Positions 14,498 through 64,000 of a DNA stretch of 64,000 nucleotides are shown here, in pieces. The notes under the pieces are model-generated. The model was not told the origin of the DNA. It searched no databases and saw only the letters and a list, made by a program, of their open reading frames with translations. Made by a program: the position numbers and the translations under genes. Numbering within the stretch: the first letter of the stretch is position 1; each line of letters opens with the position of its first letter. The stretch comes from an uncultured Eubacteriales bacterium (lineage in GTDB: Bacteria; Bacillota; Clostridia; Christensenellales; Aristaeellaceae): NCBI GenBank assembly GCA_900320085.1, contig ONRC01000002.1, positions 62,001 through 126,000 on the forward strand, given 5' to 3'.

Positions 14498-14802
14498 GCT
14501 ACTTTAAATCACGAACACAAGTTTGAAAGGTAACTCCTAAAGCCTTCCCCTCACAGGGGAAGGTGTCAGGCGCGAAGCCAAGATAGAAAGTGTGTTCAAG
14601 CCAATTCGCGCCTGACGGATGAGGTGCTCCTCCCTGTTGCTTGTTCATATATTGTCGGGTGAGTTTACCTCATCCGTGCCGTGCGAAAAGGCTTGACTTC
14701 TCTCTCAATCTTGCTTTCGCGCGGCCCACCTTCCCCTGCGAGGGGAAGGCTTTTGGGTTGGTTCCCTTCAGCTTACATTAAGAGTTAGTGATTTAAAGTG
14801 CC
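14498..14802. repeat. Multi-stem intergenic element, family D, copy 1
   Basis: The 500-base gap 14417-14928 is largely this element. The core (about 14524-14760) has two halves in inverted orientation. Each half starts with a terminal hairpin (CCTTCCCCT/AGGGGAAGG), then a second GC stem, then CGGATGAGGT facing a central loop. The left second stem is TCAGGCGCGAA/TTCGCGCCTGA; the right one is GGCCGCGCG with a partner. The core is flanked by a perfect 12-base inverted repeat ACTTTAAATCAC (14501-14512) and its complement (14788-14799). A second copy lies in the opposite orientation near 59.75 kb. I recall similar CCTTCCCCT-type palindromes in other gut Clostridia, but cannot search here. Confidence 0.82.
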
Positions 14803-57401: not shown

Positions 57402-58808
57402 ATGCCAAAGGCGGCAGTGAACAAAAAAGAAATGTTTGAAACCATGCCGGTGCCCAAAGCCCTTCTGTCCATGGCGGTGCCGACCATCATCAGCCAGTTG
57501 ATCACCTTGATCTACAACATGGTGGACGCCTTCTTTATCGGCCAGACGGGCAACTCCTTCATGGTGGCAGCGATTTCGCTGACGCTGACGCTGGTGATCA
57601 TGCTGACGTCGCTTTCCAATCTCTTCGGCGTGGGCGGCGGCAGCCTGACCGCCCGGCTGATGGGCGTGAGCCAGGAGGAGGAAGCCCGGCGGGTCAGCGC
57701 CTTCAGCGTGTACGGGGCCATCGCCGTGGTGCTGAGCTATTCCCTGCTGATCGGCCTATTCATGAATCCGCTGCTGCGGTTCCTGGGCGCGTCGGAGCAG
57801 ACGATCGAATATGCCCGGCAGTACACCTTCCTCGTGATCGTGCTGGGTGGCGGGTTCAGCATGGTGAGCATGACGCTGGCGCACCTGCTTCGCAACGCGG
57901 GCTATTCCGGCAAGGCCAGCATGGGGCTGAGCCTGGGCGGTGTGCTGAACATGGCGCTGGACCCCCTGTTCATGTTCGTGCTGCTGCCCCGGGGCAGCGA
58001 GGTCGTGGGCGCGGCGCTGGCGACGCTGCTGTCCAATATCGTTTCCTGCGGGTTTCTGCTGCTTGCTTATCAGAAGGCGACCCGTACCGCCTCCCTCAGC
58101 CTGAGTCTGAATCAAGCGCGGAAGATCAAAAGGGACAGCGTGAAAAAGGTATTCGCCGTGGGCGTGCCCTCCGCCATTCTGACGGGGCTGTTCGACCTGG
58201 CGAACGTGTGCGTGAACATGCTGGCCTCGGCCCACAGCGATCTGGCGCTGGCGGGCATGGGTATCGTGATGAAGGTGGAGCGGGTGCCCAACGCCGTCAA
58301 CATCGGCATCTGCCAGGGGGCCATGCCCATCATCGCCTACAACTATTCCGCCGGCAATATCGGCCGCATGAAAAAGACCGTGAACACCGCGCGGCTGTGG
58401 GGGCTGATCGTCTCCTTCGTTTCCATCGCGCTGTTTGAGCTCTTCGCCGGGGACGTGACGCGTTTGTTTATGAGCACCTCCCGGGGCGACGCGGAAAACG
58501 CCCTGCGCACCGTGTCCTACGCCACGCTGTTCCTGAGCATCCGGTGTCTGGCCTCCCCCTTCCAGTTCCTCAACTACCACACCTCCTTCTCCATGCAGGC
58601 CATGGGCAACGGCAAGGCCACCATGCTTCACGCCTTCGTGCGGGAGATCTTGTTCTATATCCCCTTCATGTTCCTGCTGGACAGGCTGTTTGGCGAAACC
58701 GGCCTGGCCTGGGCCTTGGTGGCGGGTGAAGGCTGCGGGGCCATGTTCGCGCTGTGGCTGATGCGCCGGGCCATGAAGCAGGCGGAAGAACGAAAGGCGG
58801 CCCCATGA
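57402..58808 (+). CDS. MATE family efflux transporter
   Basis: A 468-residue membrane protein with 12 predicted segments. The two MatE halves begin with SMAVPTIISQLITLIYNMVDAF (about 24) and AVGVPSAILTGLFD (about 255). MATE proteins use Na+ or H+ gradients to expel drugs or toxic metabolites. The start at 57402 is chosen (GCAGGGATG upstream); in-frame ATG at 57393 and TTG at 57375 are possible. It precedes miaA with a 4-base overlap. Confidence 0.9.
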   Translation: MPKAAVNKKEMFETMPVPKALLSMAVPTIISQLITLIYNMVDAFFIGQTGNSFMVAAISLTLTLVIMLTSLSNLFGVGGGSLTARLMGVSQEEEARRVSAFSVYGAIAVVLSYSLLIGLFMNPLLRFLGASEQTIEYARQYTFLVIVLGGGFSMVSMTLAHLLRNAGYSGKASMGLSLGGVLNMALDPLFMFVLLPRGSEVVGAALATLLSNIVSCGFLLLAYQKATRTASLSLSLNQARKIKRDSVKKVFAVGVPSAILTGLFDLANVCVNMLASAHSDLALAGMGIVMKVERVPNAVNIGICQGAMPIIAYNYSAGNIGRMKKTVNTARLWGLIVSFVSIALFELFAGDVTRLFMSTSRGDAENALRTVSYATLFLSIRCLASPFQFLNYHTSFSMQAMGNGKATMLHAFVREILFYIPFMFLLDRLFGETGLAWALVAGEGCGAMFALWLMRRAMKQAEERKAAP

Positions 58809-59719
58809 AAAAGCGCGTGATCGGCATCGTCGGCCCCACGGCCAGCGGAAAAACCGCGCTGTCGCTGCTGGTGGGCAAGCGGCTGGGCGGGGACATCCTG
58901 TGCATGGATTCCATGCAGATTTATAAGGGGATGGACATCGGCACCGCCAAGCCAACAAAGGAAGAACAAGCAGTGGTTCCCCATCACCTGCACAGCTTCC
59001 TGGCGCCGACGGAGAGCTTTTCGGTATCCCAGTACGCGGAAAAAGCCAGAGAAGTGATTGACCGGGTGAATGTGCCCATCCTGGTGGGCGGCACGGGGAT
59101 GTATCTGCAATCGCTGTCCCTGCCGATGGATTACGGCGCGGTGGGCGGGGATGAAGGTATCCGGAAGCATTACCATGAAATCGCCGACACCCAGGGAGCC
59201 GAAGCGCTGCACCGGATTTTGGAGCGGGTTGACCCCGCGTCGGCGGCACGGCTGCACCCCAACGACATCCGCCGGGTGGTGCGGGCGCTGGAGGTGTACG
59301 ACCTGACGGGTACGCCGCTCTCCGCCCAGAGGATGCCGGGGCCGGAGGATGCGCCTTATGATTTCCAGCTCTACGCGCTGGACATGCCAAGGGAGATACT
59401 GTACAGCCGGGTCGATCAGCGGGTGGATCAGATGATGCGGGACGGGCTGCTGGACGAGGTGAAACGGTTAAAGGACAGCGGCGTACCTGCCGACGCCCAG
59501 TCCATGCAGGGCCTGGAGTACAAAGAACTGCTGCCCGTGCTGGACGGGAAAGCGTCCTTGGAGGAAGCTGTGTCCCTAATCAAGCTCCGCACCCGGCACT
59601 ACGCTAAGCGGCAGCTGACCTGGTTCAAGCGGGATGAGCGAATTCGGTGGATACCCTTCAAGCCCGGGGACGCGCTTGGGCCGATTGCGGAATTGATATG
59701 CAAATCGTTTTCCGGATGA
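58805..59719 (+). CDS. miaA: tRNA dimethylallyltransferase MiaA
   Basis: A 304-residue enzyme that adds the dimethylallyl group to A37 of tRNAs, the substrate for MiaB. The P-loop GPTASGKTALS is at residues 8-18, and DSMQIYKGMDIGTAKPT is the substrate-binding motif, followed by VGGTGMYLQSL and RRVVRALEVYDLTG. The start overlaps the MATE stop by 4 bases (ATGA). Downstream lies the structured repeat, so the operon ends here. Confidence 0.96.
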   Translation: MKKRVIGIVGPTASGKTALSLLVGKRLGGDILCMDSMQIYKGMDIGTAKPTKEEQAVVPHHLHSFLAPTESFSVSQYAEKAREVIDRVNVPILVGGTGMYLQSLSLPMDYGAVGGDEGIRKHYHEIADTQGAEALHRILERVDPASAARLHPNDIRRVVRALEVYDLTGTPLSAQRMPGPEDAPYDFQLYALDMPREILYSRVDQRVDQMMRDGLLDEVKRLKDSGVPADAQSMQGLEYKELLPVLDGKASLEEAVSLIKLRTRHYAKRQLTWFKRDERIRWIPFKPGDALGPIAELICKSFSG

Positions 59720-59735
59720 ATGATCCACAGACTAA

Positions 59736-59960
59736 TGAAAGGTGACTCCAAAAGCCTTCCCCTCGCAGGGGAAGGTGGGCCGCGCGGAACCAAGAGCTGG
59801 AGAGGGAAATCAAGCAATTTCGCGCGGCTCGGATGAGGTGAACTCACCCGATAATATGTGAACATGCGGCCGGGAGTAGCACCTCATTCGTCAGGCGCGA
59901 ATTGACTTGATCACACTTTCTGTCTTGATTCCGCGCCTGACACCATCCGGGGCTGCCGCC
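59736..59960. repeat. Multi-stem intergenic element, family D, copy 2 (inverted)
   Basis: The same element as at 14.5 kb but reversed. Its left half (GGCCGCGCGGAA stem) matches the right half of copy 1 in reverse complement, and its right half (TCAGGCGCG stem) matches the left half of copy 1. The central loop also matches. The right terminal hairpin is replaced by CCGGGGCTGCCGCCCGG. Stem sequences differ between copies but keep pairing. It starts about 17 bases after the miaA stop. Confidence 0.85.
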
Positions 59961-60106
59961 CGGCCTTCGCTGAAAACAGTCCACGGGTGAATGGTGATAA
60001 AGAACCTTCTGAGAGAACTTCAACAATAAGCCGACAGGCCGTAGTGCTGAACCCAAGGAAAATCAAGCATTTACAGGAAGATCAGCAATTGAAGGAGGAA
60101 CAGAAG

Positions 60107-60457
60107 ATGAATATCACCTATCACGAAGAGAACGGTTACCTGCTCCCCAACATCGTAGTTGGCTGCGATACCAGCCGTCCCATTGGGAAATATGGCCGGA
60201 TGCGGCGGAAATACCTACAGGAACACCGCCTAATTTTGTTCAGCGTCATGGTCCAAGACGGCACGCTCTTTGAGCATCTGGCCGAGGTCGAGGATGCCGC
60301 GCAAACCAGGCTGGAAACCATCGTCCCTGCCTTAGCCAAGGCAGCGGGAGCTACCGAAGCGCTCAAGGCTGCTGATCCGATGAAATGGGTCGGCATCATG
60401 AACGCCTGCAAAGCCCAGGCGGAGGAGATCATCTTCCAGGAAATTGTTTACGCATAA
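60107..60457 (+). CDS. tnpV: TnpV family transposon-encoded protein
   Basis: A 116-residue protein that matches the TnpV family of Clostridia transposons (Tn4451-like): NITYHEENGYLLPNIVV at the start, GKYGRMRRKYLQEHR and the MKWVGIMNACKAQAEEI end. Its function is unknown. No recombinase or other transposon gene is here, so it is probably a remnant or cargo. The start at 60107 has GAAGGAGG 6-7 bases upstream. The stretch 59961-60106 holds nothing else that I recognise. A small terminator follows. Confidence 0.85.
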   Translation: MNITYHEENGYLLPNIVVGCDTSRPIGKYGRMRRKYLQEHRLILFSVMVQDGTLFEHLAEVEDAAQTRLETIVPALAKAAGATEALKAADPMKWVGIMNACKAQAEEIIFQEIVYA

Positions 60458-60484
60458 AGCATAGCAGTTGGTAGTGTATCTGTC

Positions 60485-60522
60485 AAGCCGTTGGGATAGC
60501 GTATGCGCCTGACGGCTTTTTT
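60485..60522 (+). terminator. Terminator after tnpV
   Basis: AAGCCGT / ACGGCTT with a 20-base loop and a TTTTTT tail. The stem is short, so efficiency is uncertain. Confidence 0.6.
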
Positions 60523-60526
60523 GACT

Positions 60527-63500
60527 TTATTTCATCACCTTATCCATCAAATCCTGATAGTTCTTCACCCCGCTGAACTTCACCAGCCCATTTGACAGCT
60601 TACAAAACAGCTTTTCCGCGCAATCAATTTTCGCTTTTTCAATGTGGCGCAAATCCATTGTCTGCATTGAACCTTTCGTTTCCGCCACGAAGTAAATATG
60701 CTTGATATGCCCTTCGTGGAACACGATAGCCCAGTCCGGTGAATAGTGTCCCACCGGCGTGGGAATAGCAAACCCCTTGGGCAGCTTGGCATAGATGTTC
60801 ACATCCTGCGAACCATCAAGCGCTTTCACAAATCTGCGTTCCACGCTGTCCTCCGCGGTGCCGTCGGTAAACACATATTCCTGAATCGCTTTTGTGGCAT
60901 GGAATGCCTGGGCAAAGGTTTTCCCATGCTTCTCTGCTGTGAAGATGCTGCTGTCGTAGATTCCCTCAATCGTGTCATAGGTAATATGATCCACGATGAT
61001 GGTCGCTTTCTGTTCCCTGATCAGGCGGATTACTTTGGTAATAAATTCCTCTGGGTTGTTCTGGAACTTGGCAAAAGTATTGGGTTTGATGCCTTTCAGG
61101 ATTGCAGCGGCAGTCCTTCGGGTCAGCACGGTTCCGTCGGCGATTTTTCCAACCAAATCATATTTGATTTGGCTGACCTCCGTGTGCCTCAGCGTATTGG
61201 TTTTCGTCTTAACCGCTTCAAAGCTATCGCCACCTCGCATCATGTCCGCGTCAATGGTTTTCCGCTGGCTGGCGACAGATACCGTATATTGAAGCTGGCT
61301 CACATCCAGGTGCTTGTCAATCTCATCAATTGCCTTCCGAATCAATTCATCGGAATCGAAGTCCACCGTATAGGCATATTTGTGATTGATCGTATTCCAC
61401 AGCGTTTGAAACGCTTCCTTATAGAACCGTTCATTCAGCGGGTTCTCCGGCGCGGGCGTGCGGTTGCCGTCCTCAAACATGTCAGCCAGCACGCTGTCAT
61501 CGAAGATGGCCTGCACCAGTTTATGAACGCTGTCCCGCATCGGCTGCAACGCGGCGGACACAGGCCGCAGTGTATTCATGCGGGCGTCATCCCGGTATTC
61601 CTGCGTAACGTTTTCGTTCTCGTCGATATAGCCATTAAGCAGCAGATATTGATAGATCTGCACCGCCTGGGTGCGGCTGATCTTCGCCCGCGTACCGTCG
61701 GCCAGAACGACATTCTTCCCTTCAAAGTATTCAATCGAAGCCTTCCGGGGCCGGTCATACAGCACAGCCCTGGTCTGATCCTGCAAATCCTTCACAAAGG
61801 AAGCATATCCTTCGCTGGCAATTACGGTCAGTGTGTTCAGTTCCTGCACCCGCTGCTCGCCCACGGTTTCCGCATCCATGCGGTCGCCCGCCTGGTTGAC
61901 GCACAGGCGCAGCCCGCGTCCCACTTCCTGCCGCTTCTGCGTGGTGCTGTCGCCGCCGTGTTTGAGCGTGCAAATCTGGAACACGTTCGGGTTGTCCCAG
62001 CCTTCCCGCAGGGCGGAGTGCGAGAAAATGAACCGTGTCGGCTCCTCAAAGCTGAGCAGCCGTTCCTTGTTTTTCAGAATCAGATCGTAAGCCGAAATAT
62101 CATCGCTGAACTCGCTGCCCCGTTTTAGGGTGGAGTCCACGGCGCGGCCTGTCTTCTTGTCGATGCTGAAATACCCGCGGTGGGTTTCGTGGGCGGTGAT
62201 GCTGTCCAGATAAGCCAGATAATCCGCGTCCAGGAACGTGCGGTAGTCTTTCAGCACGCTTTCATATTCTTCTTCAAACACCCGGCCATATTCGCCCAGG
62301 GCTTCGTTGCCGTCTTCATCGTATTGGCGGTATTTCGCCACTTCATCAATAAAGAACAGGGACAGCGTTTTGATTCCCTGGCTGAACAGCTCAGCTTCCT
62401 TTTGCAGATGGGAGATAATGGTTTCCCGAATCTGCACCCGGCGCATATGGGCTTCCGAAACGTCGCCCACCACGTCGCCCTTGTGGATCACATCGCCGTT
62501 CAGGAACGTGACGGTTGCCGCGATGGGGTCGATTTGGGCGATGGTGTAGCCGTCCTTGTATTGCTCCATCTCATTCGACACAAAGAACAGATTGTCGCCC
62601 ACGCCGAGCTTATGGGTTTCCCGCTTGATCGGCTGGGTCTTGTGCTGCACCTCCAATTCCAGCCGCGCCATGGGCGGTTTGTTGGGAGACAGCACGATGG
62701 ATTCCAGATACAGATAACTGTTCGTTCCCTTGAAATTCTTCACTTCAAAGCCCTTGACCTCAATGCGCTTGACCAGCCGCTTGTTATAGGCGTCCAGCGC
62801 GTCCAGCACATACACCAGGTTATGCTGTTTCACATGGGTAGCGGAGTAATTCAGCACGAACAGCGGATGAAACTTTGCCAGCGTTTTCTGGGTCACTTCG
62901 CCGCCCATCTTCTGCGGCTCGTCCATGATGATGATCGGCCGGTTGGCGGCGATCACGTCAATGGGACGGCGGCTGCCGAACTCATCCCGCTTGGAGAAGA
63001 TGATGCGCGCGGCGGCGTCCCCCTTGCGGCCCTCTACGTTCTTGTCCTCGTTCATGGAGGCGGCGAACGCCTGGGTATTGATAATCATGACATTGATGCC
63101 GCTGTCGGAAGAAAAACTGTCCAGTTGGTTCAGGTTGCTGCTGGAATAGATGAAGAACCGGGCCTTCTTACCATACAGCTCCATGAAATGATCCTGGGTG
63201 ATTTCAAAGGATTTCTTCACGCCCTCGCGGATGGCGATGGAGGGCACCACCACGATGAATTTGCTCCATCCATACCGCTTGTTCAGCTCAAACATGGTTT
63301 TGATGTATACGTAGGTTTTGCCCGTGCCCGTTTCCATCTCCACGTCCAGACTGCACCGCCCCTGCGCCTTCACCAGCCCGTCGGACAGCCTGATATTGTT
63401 TTCCTGCTGAATGGCGCGGATATTCTCCAACAGTTGCGCATCCGTCAGCATCAGGTTTTCATTCAGAAAACCCGTATCGTCCGGCTCGTCAAACACGCTC

Positions 63501-63679
63501 GTCTGCGGATTAGGCAGCAGCGACATTTGCTGCGGCGCAAAACTGGCCTGAACAGCAGGCGCCACGCCCACATCCCGCCGATAACTGTTTTCGCGGGCAT
63601 AGGGCTGCCCCGCGAACACCCGCACGACGCTTTCCACTGCGTCCGTTTGATACTGTTGGATTTTGAAGCGGAATTTCAT
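60527..63679 (-). CDS. res: Type III restriction enzyme Res subunit
   Basis: A 1050-residue helicase-nuclease. Walker A is in ETGTGKTYVYIKTM near residue 118; the DEAD-type box is IIIMDEPQKMGG near 253; motif VI is in QKRQEVGRGLRLCVNQ near 590. The C-terminal PD-(D/E)xK nuclease has PDWAIVF (Asp near 981) and FVAETKGS (Glu-x-Lys near 1000). The Mod partner that carries methylation and recognition is not in this window; it would lie upstream on the minus strand, beyond 64000. GGGAG lies 9 bases before the ATG. It follows the Abi_C-domain gene by 54 bases. Confidence 0.94.
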   Translation of the reverse strand: MKFRFKIQQYQTDAVESVVRVFAGQPYARENSYRRDVGVAPAVQASFAPQQMSLLPNPQTSVFDEPDDTGFLNENLMLTDAQLLENIRAIQQENNIRLSDGLVKAQGRCSLDVEMETGTGKTYVYIKTMFELNKRYGWSKFIVVVPSIAIREGVKKSFEITQDHFMELYGKKARFFIYSSSNLNQLDSFSSDSGINVMIINTQAFAASMNEDKNVEGRKGDAAARIIFSKRDEFGSRRPIDVIAANRPIIIMDEPQKMGGEVTQKTLAKFHPLFVLNYSATHVKQHNLVYVLDALDAYNKRLVKRIEVKGFEVKNFKGTNSYLYLESIVLSPNKPPMARLELEVQHKTQPIKRETHKLGVGDNLFFVSNEMEQYKDGYTIAQIDPIAATVTFLNGDVIHKGDVVGDVSEAHMRRVQIRETIISHLQKEAELFSQGIKTLSLFFIDEVAKYRQYDEDGNEALGEYGRVFEEEYESVLKDYRTFLDADYLAYLDSITAHETHRGYFSIDKKTGRAVDSTLKRGSEFSDDISAYDLILKNKERLLSFEEPTRFIFSHSALREGWDNPNVFQICTLKHGGDSTTQKRQEVGRGLRLCVNQAGDRMDAETVGEQRVQELNTLTVIASEGYASFVKDLQDQTRAVLYDRPRKASIEYFEGKNVVLADGTRAKISRTQAVQIYQYLLLNGYIDENENVTQEYRDDARMNTLRPVSAALQPMRDSVHKLVQAIFDDSVLADMFEDGNRTPAPENPLNERFYKEAFQTLWNTINHKYAYTVDFDSDELIRKAIDEIDKHLDVSQLQYTVSVASQRKTIDADMMRGGDSFEAVKTKTNTLRHTEVSQIKYDLVGKIADGTVLTRRTAAAILKGIKPNTFAKFQNNPEEFITKVIRLIREQKATIIVDHITYDTIEGIYDSSIFTAEKHGKTFAQAFHATKAIQEYVFTDGTAEDSVERRFVKALDGSQDVNIYAKLPKGFAIPTPVGHYSPDWAIVFHEGHIKHIYFVAETKGSMQTMDLRHIEKAKIDCAEKLFCKLSNGLVKFSGVKNYQDLMDKVMK

Positions 63680-63733
63680 CTCATATTCTCCCTGCTCATT
63701 CTCTTACTTTTATGCTTATTATGTTTTAAGGAA

Positions 63734-64000
63734 TCATTTGCTCTTTTCAGAATATGTATCCCATAAGAATCTAACAAGAGTAATACTTGATCCAACTGCA
63801 AGCCTGGCATATCTAACAGGCAAGCTTTTGAATGAGGCGCTTTTTCCATGCCCGCTTCCATAAGGATTCCTCAACTCGGCCATTCGTAATGCAACTTGTT
63901 GTAGATTCCCAAGAAGCGCTTTTGCAATGATATCAACACTATTCGTTCCTTTGATATTGTCCGGCATCAAACCCAGTTGAAGCATCGTCTGTCCTGAGAG
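63734..64000 (-). CDS. Abortive infection C-terminal domain protein (partial)
   Basis: The last 88 residues or so of a gene whose 5' part is past the window edge; the frame is open through 64000. ALLGNLQQVALRMAELRNPYG followed by SGHGKSASF and RYARLAVGSSITLVRFLWDTY matches the Abi_C family, found in phage-defence proteins. The DNA here is clearly richer in A and T than most of the window, which suggests transfer. It lies directly upstream of res on the same strand, so it may be cargo between mod and res. Confidence 0.7.
   Translation of the reverse strand, partial: LSGQTMLQLGLMPDNIKGTNSVDIIAKALLGNLQQVALRMAELRNPYGSGHGKSASFKSLPVRYARLAVGSSITLVRFLWDTYSEKSK

Follow-up and report, generated by a model that had tools for sequence, protein, structure and literature searches.

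A classic case of layered immunity is that of toxins tied to type I restriction operons. HEPN RNases are found in restriction operons, as with PrrC in EcoprrI (PMC3710099; PMC12707154), and AbiJ solos likewise occur in restriction-modification operons (Anantharaman et al. 2013, PMC3710099). The locus described here resembles EcoprrI/PrrC in that a predicted HEPN RNase gene lies inside a restriction operon, in the order mod, NDT-like gene, Abi_C, res, and a second-line logic is proposed for it. EcoprrI/PrrC is a type IC hsd operon with an anticodon nuclease, whereas the present operon is of type III.

The locus lies at the right-hand end of a window of 64,000 nucleotides from an uncultured Eubacteriales bacterium, corresponding to bases 62001-126000 of contig C47 (131,193 bases). 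The host genome comprises 2.9 Mb in 90 contigs and is 91% complete. Reading was extended 5.2 kb past the window to the end of the contig.

Island borders at the miaA junction

To the right of miaA, the initial annotation had named a repeat of family D, then tnpV, res and an Abi_C gene, and family matches bore out all of them (Table 1). The res product carried both a ResIII helicase domain (PF04851, E 9e-15) and an endonuclease domain (RE_endonuc, PF19778, E 5e-29), and matched PADLOC REase_III at E 1e-289. The 88 aa of Abi_C inside the window matched PF14355 at E 4e-21 and the full gene at E 1e-20. The open frame of tnpV extends over 59987-60457(+) with the PF14198 match on residues 44-154, and ATG 60107 is its likely start. 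The change from core to accessory GC content was also seen (0.61 in miaA, 0.55 in tnpV, 0.54 in res and 0.39 in Abi_C), with Abi_C, directly upstream of res, the lower of the two as described. Within the window, no Rfam family was found at threshold.

Table 1. Features at the right-hand end of the window and beyond it (L002 coordinates are the window coordinate minus 59000)
Feature	Position	Strand	Details
miaA, conserved anchor left of the insertion	58805..59719	+	TIGR00174 E 5e-83
D repeat element, left part, interrupted by the island	59736..59987	+	right part at the end of contig C79
8-bp target duplication TCCACGGG (TCCACTGG at the other border)	59980..59987	.	by comparison with intact D copies L004, L006, L009
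Left 21-bp terminal inverted repeat	59988..60008	+	right one at C79:50891-50911
tnpV	60107..60457	+	PF14198 E 5e-36
res, type III restriction subunit	60527..63679	-	1050 aa; RE_endonuc, ResIII, PADLOC REase_III
Abi_C / AbiJ-like HEPN gene (predicted), 3' part	63734..64000	-	PF14355
Abi_C, full gene	L002 4734-5561	-	275 aa, PF14355
NDT/DNPH1-like gene with Zn-ribbon	L002 5590-6624	-	344 aa
mod	L002 6621-8537	-	638 aa; PF01555 E 6e-39; PADLOC MTase_III E 1e-235
223-aa slot gene	L002 8473-9144	-	no family above cut-off
Truncated DUF4391, C-terminal half	L002 9141-9506	-	121 aa
HTH_3 gene	L002 9579-10181	-	200 aa
End of contig C47	L002 10193		

The D repeats are palindromic and about 200-290 bp long, with 138-149 first-look candidates in this genome; scoring 40 of 138 of these gave 88 matches (E<=1, both strands counted). 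A second copy lies in the window at 14524-14756, and matches were present in 16 of the 29 genomes of the genus, own included. Matches numbered 19 to 63 in the D-rich genomes G004, G014, G007, G010 and G814 and 1 to 5 in the other ten (own excluded). Contigs C20, C52 and C55 terminate inside a D repeat. The structured repeat that had been noted beside miaA proved to be a real D element (folding of 59720-60110, z -4.1; as-good shuffles 0/100), and it is the target of the island rather than a part of it. As part of a defence unit the D element was rejected on its scores of places in the genome and its spread through the genus, and TnpV was rejected on its matches at four places in the genome, i.e., three besides this one, one of them partial.

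On the miaA side the left 240 bp of the element are kept, and its right end is included in the last 229 bp of contig C79, which follow a Met_gamma_lyase gene at C79:49494-50735. By comparison with the three intact copies, the two halves fit as one element split in the palindrome GAAAACAGTCCACTGGACTGTTTTC, and the split is flanked by the 8-bp duplication, with one mismatch between its two sides. Inside the duplication stand the inverted repeats TGAATGGTGATAAAGAACCTT and TGATTGTGGATAAAGAACCTT. The 21-bp repeat had exactly two matches in the genome at <=3 mismatches, both at the island borders (control, 0). The complementary D halves, the duplication and the unique inverted repeats at the borders together argue for an inserted island, 9.2 kb or longer, whose target was a D repeat at the miaA junction. 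With the borders on two contigs, a misassembly or the joining of unrelated pieces was considered; it is unlikely rather than disproved, because the half elements are complementary and the inverted repeat occurs at no third place. The last 107 bases of C47 and the last 66 of C79 had no match to any other contig end.

The miaA region was compared in 14 congeneric genomes, in stretches of differing length. The Met_gamma_lyase gene (PF06838 E 6e-165 in the copy of G010) starts 9-66 nt past the miaA match in 13 of the 14, and the location of the restriction genes beside miaA is thus not conserved across relatives, in line with the accessory boundary initially proposed. The fourteenth congener (L088) has a different open frame after miaA and its contig ends 778 nt further. 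No match to the restriction genes or to the D element was found in the 14 stretches.

The initial annotation had also described a TnpV gene without other transposon genes, and no transposase or large serine recombinase gene was found among the assembled island genes, the middle of the island being absent from the assembly. A tyrosine integrase is one candidate for the recombinase, because congener G003 has such a gene 2.6 kb away from a related operon, and a TnpV gene farther out. The stretch beside the G003 operon (L279 1289-5322) encodes a tyrosine integrase (PF00589 E 6e-21), a small HTH-like protein and TnpV, and looks like an integrative-element module.

The operon and the precise swap in a congener

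The mod gene, expected past the window, was present 1.06 kb beyond the Abi_C start, and its product matched the type III N6/N4 methyltransferase families. On the minus strand, the operon runs HTH_3 (GC 0.53), truncated DUF4391 (0.52), the 223-aa gene (0.30), mod (0.47), the NDT-like gene (0.35), Abi_C and res. It belongs to the helicase-DUF4391-mod-res kind, and this copy is without the helicase and half of DUF4391, covering profile positions 110-230 of 232 only. The copy may be impaired, since the helicase is lost and DUF4391 truncated. Extended to the whole island, this would mean decay, with restriction gone and the remaining genes as remnants. Such a reading draws on the partial DUF4391 and on the comparison with G003 and L233, which both have the helicase and a full-length DUF4391, the homology between the own and G003 operons stopping at L002 9523. 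Against it, mod, res, the NDT-like gene and Abi_C are open and full length, and in classical type III enzymes Mod and Res suffice; decay is considered unlikely.

Matches to res were present in 6 of the 29 genus genomes, own included. The G003 res (C1:57027-60167) is 88% identical, and its operon is on another contig (C1) than the G003 miaA (C76). It consists of a helicase (1080 aa), DUF4391 (200 aa), genes of 282 and 185 aa, mod (714 aa), a 91-aa gene, RhuM (PF13310 E 1e-102) and res. In blastn, the matches between the two operons comprised res with the 26 nt before it (82%), the two ends of mod (88% and 90%) and the end of DUF4391 (74%), and there was no match in the DUF4391-mod gap, the middle of mod or the mod-res gap. 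The exchanged middle of mod is presumably the target recognition region. Both operons have GTGAGGAGGGTRYTGTRATG at the mod end, Shine-Dalgarno-like within the last codons, with a start overlapping the stop, and the genes diverge thereafter. The swap is precise, with the same mod tail and res start and other genes in both slots of G003. Since AGGAGGG stands in the mod tail and the mod stop overlaps the next start as TGATG, ribosomes finishing mod probably go on to translate the first slot gene. With similar mod ends and res and different effectors, the own genome and G003 amount to a natural experiment.

Slots in type III loci and the genes that fill them

A res profile from three genomes gave 80 loci, the best 80 of 582 confirmed, so that the occupied fraction is not a census. 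A mod gene was recognized in 66 of the 80. The 14 loci without a mod match were excluded; nine of them start <250 bp before res, and L110 and L112, with about 10 kb upstream, still showed no mod. The mod-res distance was <200 bp in 40 of the 66 loci, taken as an empty slot, and larger in 26, these gap sizes hinging on the first possible start codon. After removal of L114, in which mod is in two pieces, other genes stood between mod and res in 25 of the 66 loci (among the best 80 of 582). The next ATG overlapped the mod stop in 10 of the 25 occupied loci compared to 3 of the 40 empty ones.

Pfam was searched with 20 of the 32 slot proteins from these 25 loci, and 14 of the 20 matched above cut-off: DUF2971 and SLFN_AlbA_2 (three each), Fic (two), and YhcG, RhuM, AbiJ_NTD3, Abi_C, TPR and Abi_2 (one each). 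Judged from the family names, they are mostly of toxin or defence type. The occupied loci offer candidate effectors, some without any Pfam family, and a defined site of exchange between mod and res, if type III operons possess one, would be a place to discover such effectors.

The DUF4391-mod gap was flagged in 18 of 41 loci and contained other genes in 14 after removal of L179, L181 and L186 (second or broken mod) and L156 (no listed gene); the 41 include L157, in which mod was mistaken for DUF4391. Between helicase and DUF4391, 7 of 39 loci were flagged, L157 included, and a gene of ~122 aa occupied this gap in L121, L133, L138 and L152. The mod-res gap is the most used, yet it is one of several slots. 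Three or four genes are stacked between DUF4391 and mod in L120, L133 and L142, and one gene searched from this gap of L142 had no Pfam match. In L181 (6028-9990) and L186 (6136-9996), tandem mod-like genes, judged by N-terminal sequence, precede a single res.

The Abi_C product contains the R-x(4-6)-H motif as RN-x5-H, with R231, N232 and H238 invariant in 6 of 6 sequences. When the L233 homologue (60% identical) was modelled, HEPN and Csm6 structures ranked first for the C-terminal half (Z 10.1 to 8.3), a ranking to be read with pLDDT <50 at the motif and with the tendency of helical bundles to score high by chance. PADLOC AbiJ matched residues 126-269 only (E 3e-14), no AbiJ_NTD or ABC-ATPase family was found in Pfam up to E 0.5, and the Abi_C profile had no match to solved structures up to E 1. 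The product is probably an AbiJ-like HEPN RNase, predicted to cut RNA.

In L142 (Bacteroidales; Abi_C 52% identical to the own copy), Abi_C is flanked by mod on one side and, with one TPR gene in between, by res on the other, and L233 and L237 from IMG/VR also have it between these two genes; the contig of L227 begins inside Abi_C, and res follows. L233 also carries a DUF2971 gene in its DUF4391-mod slot. The idea of a combined defence locus, put forward from the window, was strengthened by four further loci with Abi_C before a type III res, and the two functions may act jointly. The NDT-like gene, the second slot and the missing helicase lay outside the view of the initial annotation. A survey of 398 genomes of the phylum gave six close relatives of Abi_C (>=50%, own included), two of which adjoin a type III res. 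IMG/VR held eight Abi_C loci, two of the eight (L233 and L237) with the order mod-Abi_C-res, and L234 with a mod-like gene upstream. In L223 (6256-8356) and L224 (7459-9559), a 448-aa gene follows the Abi_C homologue; the L223 copy has AbiJ_NTD3, the family also of the L140 slot gene. A ThsB-type TIR gene (PF08937 E 9e-8) stands directly before an Abi_C homologue split into two frames in L226 (6892-8097).

The NDT-like protein scored 23.5 bits against PF05014, below the curated cut-off of 28.8, and the NDT profile found rat Rcl/DNPH1 at E 3e-4. Glu275, kept in 11 of 11 sequences, aligned with the Glu of the Tyr-Glu in rat Rcl GVGYELG, which we take to be the nucleophile; Asp264 was kept in 11 of 11 as well. 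For the C-terminal domain of the modelled L241 homologue (33% identical), DNPH1 came first (Z 15.5, 2.6 A over 120 residues), with the CMP N-glycosidase MilB at Z 14.4. An NAD-type substrate is also conceivable, because a plant TIR domain was on the same list of 50 structures (Z 11.9, rank 50). The product is probably a DNPH1/MilB-type nucleotide N-glycosidase, as predicted from these likenesses. The titles of the structure entries name DNPH1 with hydroxymethyl-dUMP and MilB with hydroxymethyl-CMP, which suggests modified nucleotides as possible substrates.

Across the order, 18 of 396 genomes carried the NDT gene, at 19 places in all; three of these adjoin type III genes, and 6 of the 19 were viewed with flanks of 1.5 kb or less. 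L097 has the order mod, NDT, DUF2971 gene, res, and in L096 NDT is found directly before res. None of 27 IMG/VR NDT loci had a mod or res match. A plasmid or phage origin was considered and rejected for both genes: of 72,556 plasmid records, 113 matched Abi_C, all at <60% identity (about 27% among 15 listed), and one matched NDT (29%).

Since most of their copies were not seen beside type III genes, neither NDT nor Abi_C needs the restriction enzyme; both recur in the slot as independent effectors rather than obligate partners. The same distribution, together with the many unrelated families in the slot, favours passive cargo, in which self-sufficient defence or toxin genes use the mod-res gap as an expressed, mobile landing place and are not regulated by the restriction enzyme. 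The mostly toxin- or defence-type nature of the nameable cargo and the exchange borders, which keep the mod tail and the overlapping start, speak for a closer tie, although both are compatible with passive cargo too, and we regard it as possible, with some doubt. The two genes could instead form a signalling pair modelled on Thoeris-type systems, in which TIR enzymes signal to effectors; the NDT-like protein would make or remove a nucleotide signal and thereby switch the HEPN RNase, the restriction genes being mere neighbours. The TIR gene before the Abi_C homologue of L226 and the plant TIR domain on the structure list point this way, whereas Abi_C lies between mod and res without NDT in L142, L233 and L237, and NDT occurs without Abi_C in L096 and L097. 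Such a pair is highly improbable.

Proposed second-line immunity and comparison with known systems

The preferred reading, held with middling confidence, is that the type III restriction operon acts as a mobile chassis whose second-line effectors can be interchanged, following a PrrC-like logic. It builds on the observed anatomy, insertion and swap. An island with 21-bp inverted repeats entered the palindromic D centre between miaA and the methionine-gamma-lyase-like gene, carrying an operon whose exchangeable parts are the mod middle, the DUF4391-mod slot and the mod-res slot, the last filled here by a putative NDT/DNPH1-like nucleotide N-glycosidase and a putative AbiJ-like HEPN RNase. Mod-Res would restrict unmodified phage DNA; if this is blocked or overwhelmed, RNA and nucleotides would be cut by the slot enzymes as a second line, which would stop phage growth at the expense of the cell, as PrrC backs up EcoprrI. 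For this course of events we infer the enzyme activities, a single transcript, the coupling and the trigger. Counting against the chassis are the empty mod-res slot in 40 of 66 loci and the copies away from type III genes, i.e., NDT in 16 of the 19 places viewed and 27 of 27 IMG/VR loci, and Abi_C in 4 of 6. A bolder version makes the chassis a plug-in device with the start built into the mod end and the effector under control of the restriction complex, the NDT-like enzyme destroying modified deoxynucleotides of the phage (hydroxymethyl-dUMP/-dCMP) and the HEPN RNase serving as the last resort. It is quite unlikely; if true, phage evasion by base modification would be met by the same operon.

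Among known systems, the island resembles TnpV-bearing transposons of the Tn4451 type in the TnpV gene near one end. It differs in its 21-bp inverted repeats and 8-bp duplication, with no recombinase gene in the assembled part of the island. The operon shares mod and res of the expected families with type III enzymes of the EcoP15I class, from which these loci are set apart by an SNF2-type helicase and DUF4391 upstream, the helicase being lost here, and often by a mod-res insert. The NDT-like protein has the predicted C-terminal fold (Z 15.5 and 14.4) and the conserved Tyr-Glu in common with DNPH1 (Rcl) and MilB, and is distinguished by an extra Zn-ribbon and middle region and by a PF05014 score below cut-off.

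The AbiJ/Abi_C proteins of restriction operons in PMC3710099 share PF14355 and R-x(4-6)-H with the present Abi_C. In the accessible text of that source the whole word Mod does not occur and the two mentions of type III found concern CRISPR, whereas here a defined mod-res exchange slot is described. Compared to EcoprrI/PrrC, no ABC-ATPase family of Pfam matched Abi_C up to E 0.5, and a second, nucleotide-type enzyme is predicted beside it. In the open-access literature searched, no listed title or abstract described effectors encoded in the mod-res gap of type III operons. The finding belongs to a known kind, because HEPN RNases in restriction operons are established; not listed in the literature searched is the use of the mod-res gap for exchange, seen here in two congeners whose operons share their ends but differ in cargo, along with a DNPH1-like candidate effector.
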